17,205 nucleotides of DNA, from NCBI GenBank assembly GCA_030630935.1, contig DAOVMD010000013.1, positions 1 to 17,205 on the forward strand, given 5' to 3'. Origin of the DNA: Candidatus Mcinerneyibacteriota bacterium. Its GTDB lineage: Bacteria; AUK180; JAQVHJ01. The notes under the pieces were generated by a model. That model was given only the letters and a program-made list of their open reading frames with translations. It ran no database searches and had not been told where the DNA came from. A program made the position numbers and the translations under genes. Positions 1-16,427 of the stretch are shown here, one piece after another (positions within the stretch are counted from its first letter, which is position 1; each line of letters opens with the position of its first letter).

Positions 1-51
1 AACTGAAAATAATGTTTTTTAATGGCAATTTATATACGTGCAGTTATATAG
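1..51. repeat. Partial copy of a MITE-like palindromic element, cut by the window edge
   Basis: These 51 bases match the reverse complement of 16248-16298 at 45 of 51 positions. The match ends exactly at the terminal sequence GTTATATAG, so it is one arm of the same 129-bp element described at 16248-16376. The left edge begins with AACTG, inside the central palindrome of the complete copy, so the rest of this copy should lie just outside the window. It is downstream of feoB and does not touch a gene. The homology is read directly; calling it mobile is inference. Confidence 0.8.
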
Positions 52-2928: not shown

Positions 2929-2955
2929 ATATTTACATAAAATAGGAGGTTGAAT

Positions 2956-3390
2956 ATGTTCAAGAAAATTCTTCAAATTACATGTTTGTTTTTAATATTT
3001 TTATTTTTTATGGGATGTGCGACTCTACAAAACCGTGAGGACAATCTTTATCCCGATGTATCTCCTGGGAAATCACTCGTTTATTTTTATCGTGAGAACA
3101 AGTTGGAAGGTTTAGGACTAAGCTATATTATATATGCAAATGAGGAAAAAGTCGGAAGGCTTCAAAATGGAACATATTTTTTAAAAGAATTTGAACCAGG
3201 GGAATATATATTCTGGGCTAAAACAGAAGTCAAAGACGAAGTGATTCTAAAACTTGAACCTAATGAAATCTATTATATCAAAGGACAAATAGTGATGGGG
3301 TTTTTTATAGGACGCCCGGATTTAATAAGTGTTACAGAATCAGAAGGAAAATCTAAAATTAAAAACTTAAAATATAAAGTCATTGAGTAA
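2956..3390 (+). CDS. Small DUF2846-like lipoprotein
   Basis: The 144-residue product starts with a lipoprotein signal peptide: two Lys (3-4), a hydrophobic run to 19, and the lipobox FFMGC with the acylated Cys at 21. The mature part contains GKSLVYFYRENK, SYIIYANEEKVGRL, NGTYFLKEFEPGEY and a late IYYIKGQ strand. This order fits the DUF2846 family of small beta-sandwich lipoproteins, whose function is unknown to me. I chose ATG 2956 because AGGAGG sits 6 bases before it; an in-frame TTG at 2950 touches the AGGAGG and cannot be the start. It is probably anchored in the periplasmic face of a membrane. It is the only plus-strand gene here, with its own promoter and repeats on both sides. The family assignment is from pattern memory only. 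Confidence 0.85.
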   Translation: MFKKILQITCLFLIFLFFMGCATLQNREDNLYPDVSPGKSLVYFYRENKLEGLGLSYIIYANEEKVGRLQNGTYFLKEFEPGEYIFWAKTEVKDEVILKLEPNEIYYIKGQIVMGFFIGRPDLISVTESEGKSKIKNLKYKVIE

Positions 3391-3653: not shown

Positions 3654-3697
3654 TTCAAATGTTTAAGTGTTATTTTAAAGAAGTCCCCTGCTCAAGC
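3654..3697 (+). repeat. 44-bp dispersed repeat, copy B
   Basis: This is the partner of 2801-2844, with four differences in 44 bases. In this copy the CCCCTGCTCAAGC end continues into its exact reverse complement, forming the palindrome at 3679-3714. It lies between two converging genes. Confidence 0.8.
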
Positions 3698-3714
3698 TTG
3701 AGCAGGGGACTTCT
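3679..3714. terminator. Perfect 36-bp palindrome, possible two-way terminator
   Basis: An 18-base arm ending TCCCCTGCTCAAG is followed at once by its exact reverse complement, with no spacer. It begins 13 bases past the Tricorn stop codon. On the minus strand it is followed by TTTAAAATAA, only a modest T tract. A hairpin this stable between converging genes could end transcription from both sides, but its sharing of sequence with 2801-2844 suggests it arose as a mobile or dispersed repeat. Palindrome is certain; terminator role is inferred. Confidence 0.55.
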
Positions 3715-3726
3715 CTACTGTTACTA

Positions 3727-16247: not shown

Positions 16248-16376
16248 CTATATAACTGCGCATATATAATTCGTTATTAAAAAACATTATTTTCAGTTGC
16301 ACGATTTGTCAATTGACAAATCGTGCAACTGACATAAATAATAATTATGTCGAAAAACTTATGCGCAGTTATATAG
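16248..16376. mobile_element. 129-bp MITE-like palindromic element
   Basis: The element is bounded by perfect 17-bp terminal inverted repeats, CTATATAACTGCGCATA and its complement. Both arms run AT-rich toward a perfect 40-bp palindrome at its centre. A second, partial copy lies at 1-51, inverted relative to this one, with 45 of 51 matches and the same terminus. It has no coding capacity, so any movement would rely on a transposase supplied in trans. Target duplication is ambiguous: TATA flanks both sides if the ends are taken as TAACTGCGC, but this is palindromic and shared with the other copy. Confidence 0.75.
16293..16332. repeat. Perfect 40-bp palindrome at the centre of the element
   Basis: A 20-base arm beginning TCAGTTGCACGATTTG is followed directly by its exact reverse complement, with AATT at the centre. 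It has no loop, so it would form a cruciform in DNA or a long RNA hairpin. A smaller stem GACATAA/TTATGTC (16331-16351) adjoins it. Confidence 0.9.
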
Positions 16377-16427
16377 ATCTTCGTTGCGGAATGACAAATA
16401 ATGTAACAAAAATAAAGCGCAGCAAGC

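Follow-up and report, generated by a model that had tools for sequence, protein, structure and literature searches.

A palindrome carried by an IS630-type MITE of a Candidatus Mcinerneyibacteriota bacterium recurs in host promoter regions and is a candidate ArsR-type operator

The closest described counterparts of the element reported here are RUP of Streptococcus pneumoniae and the Correia/NEMIS elements of Neisseria. RUP is a 107-bp MITE for which IS630-Spn1 has been proposed as the mover, and it resembles our element in being short, intergenic and multi-copy with IS630-like terminal inverted repeats (TIRs) and a TA target, but its TIR is listed as 9 bp instead of 17 bp (PMC2229807). No DNA-level functional motif is reported for RUP (PMC2229807), whereas the element described here carries a co-varying palindrome that it has in common with host promoter regions. 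Correia/NEMIS elements likewise occur in size classes formed via internal deletion, have TIRs with TA and contain promoter-like sites as well as an internal protein-binding site, for IHF (PMC2229807; PMC10969869). Their cargo thus differs from the one found here, a palindrome of 32-40 bp that also stands alone and adjoins ArsR-type genes. More generally, the documented cargo of bacterial MITEs includes promoters and IHF sites (PMC2229807; PMC10969869), while the words operator, repressor and regulon are absent from the main text of a 2024 MITE review (PMC10969869); a literature search found no relevant work on operators in MITEs or on palindromes that flank ArsR genes. Autonomous elements of the IS630/ISY100 type encode a transposase with HTH and DDE_3 domains and duplicate a TA, as documented for ISY100 (PMC2170065), and IS630 is reported to prefer the TA in CTAG (Tenzen and Ohtsubo 1991, as cited in PMC2170065). 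The MITE shares this target and differs in lacking a transposase and in having about one-tenth of the size of a planctomycete IS630 element of ~1.26 kb described below.

The window, that is the whole stretch of DNA analysed, is an entire contig (C458, 17,205 bp) from a draft genome that totals 3.16 Mb over 471 contigs and is 80% complete. Its relevant features are the following:

16248-16376, plus strand: MITE footprint, made up of the split target C-TA, the 123-bp element (16251-16373) and TA-G
16248-16264, plus strand: left TIR of 17 bp, CTATATAACTGCGCATA, of which the first CTA is target sequence
16360-16376, minus strand: right TIR, the perfect complement of the left TIR, of which the last TAG is target sequence
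16293-16332, no strand: 40-bp perfect palindrome TCAGTTGCACGATTTGTCAATTGACAAATCGTGCAACTGA, an operator-like core as judged by co-variation and solo copies
16313-16342, plus strand: promoter-like hexamers TTGACA-18-AATAAT, identified by consensus match (11/12 positions), the first hexamer within the palindrome
1-51, minus strand: second MITE copy in reverse orientation, cut by the contig end
16240-16247, plus strand: host sequence to the left of the insertion, belonging to an interspersed repeat known elsewhere without the insert
16377-16402, plus strand: host sequence to the right of the insertion, belonging to the same interspersed repeat

An earlier note on this DNA had described perfect 17-bp TIRs, a perfect 40-bp central palindrome and an inverted partial copy at the opposite edge, all of which are found at these positions; the partial copy matches at 45 of 51 bases (88%) and is cut off at the palindrome by the end of the contig. 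The note was also right about the gene-less design and about a multi-copy family reaching beyond the two copies in the window; a transposase gene is absent inside the element. Searches of the draft genome, from which all copy counts are taken, found ~30 places matching the 129-bp element, and the genome search with the terminus that the note had proposed gave 35 TIR matches with at most two mismatches compared to none for a reversed control pattern. Among approximately 17 paired elements, four size classes can be distinguished (117-129, 163-167, 277-279 and 300-303 bp); this count omits two doubtful pairings (one in locus L008 and the longer one in L045). The shorter forms resemble longer ones that have lost internal sequence, and the palindrome or its remains persist in every form except a 117-bp copy, whose deletion runs through the core. 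By simple ORF calls, each of the 21 copies examined lies in an intergenic region. An origin from phages or plasmids was rejected, since viral contigs contained no exact match to the TIR or the palindrome and plasmids no match to the element.

The copy in the window is inserted in a host interspersed repeat (GACGCAAGCTAGATCTTCGATGCGCAATGACAAATAA) that holds its CTAG target. Joined across the element, its flanks read GACGCAGG-CTAG-ATCTTCG, a junction that is uninserted at five other sites of the genome; the target is therefore CTAG, the TA is duplicated and the element proper measures 123 bp, with the outer C-TA and TA-G being the halves of the split target. The comparison of filled and empty sites suggested in the earlier note thus yielded a target duplication, although at empty sites that are paralogous and not orthologous. 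Such a TA duplication within CTAG is the hallmark of IS630-branch elements among the Tc1/mariner family. The flanks of other MITE copies also resemble the host repeat, further loci of which are L139-L142 and L144.

The note had advised looking for a transposase gene with the same ends, and a broken one with one such end is present in the genome. The one gene with a DDE_3 domain (PF13358), on contig C22, represents a truncated IS630 transposase whose reading frame contains an interrupting stop codon, and its surviving end CTATGTAACTGCGCATAATTTATTCGACATAAT matches the MITE ends together with subterminal sequence. Among named genomes, the TIR occurs at both ends (positions 3044 and 4283) of an IS630 element of ~1.26 kb in a Planctomycetia bacterium (L093), which has two ORFs with HTH and DDE_3 domains; their products share 58-63% identity with the C22 remnant. 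In a second planctomycete contig (L090) the TIR precedes a related, shortened transposase reading frame; some exact TIR matches in coding DNA, for example in Macrococcus, L094 and L097, were disregarded as chance-like. The same TIR also lies within ~115 bp of contig ends in L092 and L096 (Brocadiaceae) and L099 (Planctomycetota), which suggests that these planctomycetes, too, carry multi-copy elements with a CTATATAACTGCGCATA-type end. In the window's genome, which is 80% complete, the searches revealed no intact autonomous partner, so that the family may no longer be mobile there.

The 129-bp element is almost certainly an IS630 (Tc1/mariner-like) MITE, as judged from its sequence, and was probably mobilised by an IS630-type transposase; the case for mobility is made by the ends, the target duplication, the copy number and the related transposase gene with the same end. 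Of the two classes that the earlier note had named, MITE and REP/BIME, the first is borne out by the copies, the TIRs, the TA duplication in CTAG and the transposase gene. REP/BIME and REPIN units, which are likewise palindromic, intergenic and present in many copies, are not known to have IS630-type TIRs or a TA duplication in CTAG. Membership in these units, which pair with a RAYT (Y1) transposase, is not supported, given the 17-bp TIRs, duplicated TA and IS630-type ends of the element. An integron attC site, considered on account of GTTATAT-like ends and judged by R and L boxes, an unpaired spacer and clustered cassettes, was rejected as well: the 17-bp arms pair without a spacer, the copies are dispersed among ordinary genes, and TA is duplicated in CTAG.

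As a MITE, the element is of an ordinary, known kind; what is new is the palindrome common to host promoter regions. We read it as an IS630-type MITE whose cargo palindrome is a putative ArsR-type operator with promoter-like hexamers, and we give this statement as a whole, which is drawn from sequence, about even odds (0.5). The earlier note had missed that the core palindrome is also present alone, outside the MITE. The pattern TTGCACGATTN4ANNTN4AATCGTGCAA, with at most three mismatches, has 24 sites in the window's genome, six of which lie outside MITE sequence, and all six are located 23-79 bp upstream of a start codon. The genes behind them encode a patatin-like protein, a WG-repeat lipoprotein, an NAD-dependent epimerase, a flavodoxin-like protein, an exported protein and a DUF3795 protein, some of these product names having been assigned by reading the sequence. 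The outer arms TTGCACGATT/AATCGTGCAA are conserved in MITE and solo palindromes alike. TGACATATGTAAGTAAATAAAAAAAGG or close variants follow the palindrome at several solo sites, where TTGACA or TTGACC in the palindrome is followed after 16 bp by TATGTA or TATATA, a plausible candidate promoter; the same arrangement in the MITE scores as TTGACA-18-AATAAT. Across 386 genomes, which include six further genomes of the window's class, the palindrome occurs in six: the window's genome itself and five genomes from a sister family within its class. Among the sister-family palindromes, several follow a stop codon and one lies between convergent genes, and the -35-like core is not universal.

The palindrome varies in a coordinated manner. 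In an alignment of 22 MITE cores, 16 of them distinct, 14 of the 22 palindrome pairs have changed on both sides in some copy. Covariation is 0.387 versus 0.130 for shuffles, and sliding the arms against each other abolishes the signal. Watson-Crick pairing is broken in 24 of 288 inner cells, compared to 83 expected for independently varying arms. Several core types (TTTGTC/GACAAA, TTGGTC/GACCAA, TTGGCC/GGCCAA and the diverged TCGCGATTTCGTATATACGAAATCGCGA) occupy the same position in the element. The exchanges between copies are almost all Watson-Crick, with few G-U pairs among many double changes, which favours a role of the duplex DNA, as operator or cruciform, over an RNA hairpin. The cores of L045 and L126 (G000:C175 and C20), which have ATGTCGCGA on one arm and TCGTGCAAC on the other, look like hybrids of two palindrome types, as if joined by recombination.

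Such symmetry could also arise without a protein. Template switching has been described as homogenising the arms of inverted repeats (PMC7202029, PMC8604942), and template-switch correction between the arms could be a contributor here. In its strongest form this leads to a plain IS630-type MITE, in which the palindrome serves as structural filler, correction during replication maintains its symmetry and no regulator is involved. All the MITE evidence fits this explanation, which draws on a documented process (PMC7202029, PMC8604942); we nevertheless consider it rather unlikely, because it is this particular sequence, rather than palindromes in general, that reappears outside the MITE at gene starts and in the sister family, and because the outer arms are conserved.

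ArsR operators are inverted repeats in the promoter regions of the regulated genes and of the regulator gene itself. By position, the palindromes studied here would fit this description at the six solo copies of the window's genome and at the subfamily ArsR genes of the sister family, with close cognates in the sister family only. They differ in being perfect over 28-40 bp, in occurring also directly after the regulator gene and in being transposon-borne, and they are candidates by sequence. Two genomes of the sister family, which represent two genera, carry the MITE's version of the palindrome at genes for 93-aa ArsR-like proteins that are 71% identical: on both sides of the gene in G004 and 3 nt after its stop codon in G006. 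Across the class, palindromes with private sequences flank the 93-aa ArsR paralogs, for instance ATGTCGCATTGTCGTAATTACGACAATGCGACAT, or TCGTATCTTCGTATATACGAAGATACGA at both ends. A palindrome of at least 10 pairs (at most three mismatches) lies within 100 nt of all 15 subfamily genes compared to 55 of 282 background genes, and one of at least 12 pairs near 12/15 compared to 17/282; these 15 genes are related and so do not represent 15 independent events, and the subfamily boundary was set by score after the pattern had been seen. Only one of six more distant ArsR genes has such a palindrome. At L148-L154 and L163 (G002, G003, G005 and G006; positions ~1400-1850), the long perfect palindromes that bracket ArsR-like genes are often direct copies on both sides, and each paralog has its own sequence.

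This arrangement suggests a further explanation, in which a second mobile unit, a small cassette consisting of an ArsR gene between two direct palindrome copies, uses the palindromes as attachment sites or leaves them as remnants, with solo copies left after gene loss and one of them picked up by the MITE. It accounts for the ArsR genes that lie between two direct palindromic repeats of ~28-50 bp at L150, L151, L154 and L163, and for a solo copy on G003:C17 that is of the same palindrome type as an ArsR locus ~7 kb away and has the right-hand flank in common with it. The operator-like placement of all six solo copies in the window's genome, close upstream of starts, and the private palindrome sequence of every paralog make this explanation improbable. 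An RNA hairpin (a terminator, an attenuator or, in line with a proposal for Neisseria NEMIS, an mRNA processing site) is very improbable: the single-strand fold of the 129-bp footprint is very stable (z = -11.4, equalled by 0/200 shuffles) and the copies examined are intergenic (21/21), but a T-tract terminator is absent, no Rfam family reaches its gathering score, the scarcity of G-U exchanges points to duplex DNA, and the promoter-like hexamers would not transcribe the palindrome because the first of them lies inside it. A known RNA was rejected, the Rfam matches being below gathering scores and mostly to eukaryotic hairpins.

For the putative operator carried by a MITE, the following mechanism can be proposed. 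An IS630-family transposase, of which one broken copy remains, would have used the CTATATAACTGCGCATA ends as recognition sites and transferred the element to CTAG targets in a cut-and-paste reaction that duplicates TA. The cargo, the palindrome of 32-40 bp, would be a candidate operator for a small class-specific ArsR-type winged-helix regulator and would overlap the promoter-like hexamers, so that each insertion would provide an adjacent gene with a binding site for the regulator and perhaps with a promoter as well. We infer the operator step from position and conservation, and a promoter function and an effect on neighbouring genes would likewise be predicted from the sequence. Read most simply, the data pair every regulator with a palindromic operator of its own, one of which is borne by the MITE. 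Several points count against an operator: sister-family palindromes stand in several cases after stop codons and in one between convergent genes, some of them lack a -35-like core, template-switch correction could hold the arms symmetrical without a protein, and the search for ArsR genes in the window's genome (80% complete) gave weak matches only, with no close relative of the subfamily among them. In that genome, a MITE with an intact palindrome is situated ~0.2-0.6 kb upstream of two of the three ArsR-like (HTH_5) genes found (G000:C109:13173-13337 and C223:12824-12929; L194 and L198), which could be a coincidence. Elsewhere, two different regulator-type palindromes, the MITE type and a type seen at another ArsR paralog in G002, lie 62 bp apart between two genes (G003:C13:125541-125668; L173).

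The scattering of transcription-factor binding sites by transposons is a well-known idea for eukaryotic networks. A transposon may have scattered regulator binding sites around this bacterial genome too, and the distribution of operators by a MITE is directly testable here because the same palindrome occurs alone upstream of genes and beside candidate regulators. A tentative extension, which we consider possible but less likely than not, is that the MITE family spreads the sites of one regulator family, switches operator type between subfamilies and so rewires the regulon, with the 93-aa ArsR paralogs and their private palindromes forming parallel repressor-operator pairs in one class. The bracketing of ArsR genes by private palindromes is a separate, checkable observation. 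The window also contains a 44-bp direct repeat (2801-2844 and 3654-3717; 91%) that flanks a small lipoprotein-like ORF at 2950-3390. In this region CCCCTGCTCAAGC is absent from all other loci compared, and the second copy of the repeat continues into a palindrome of its own (CCCCTGCTCAAGCTTGAGCAGGGG).
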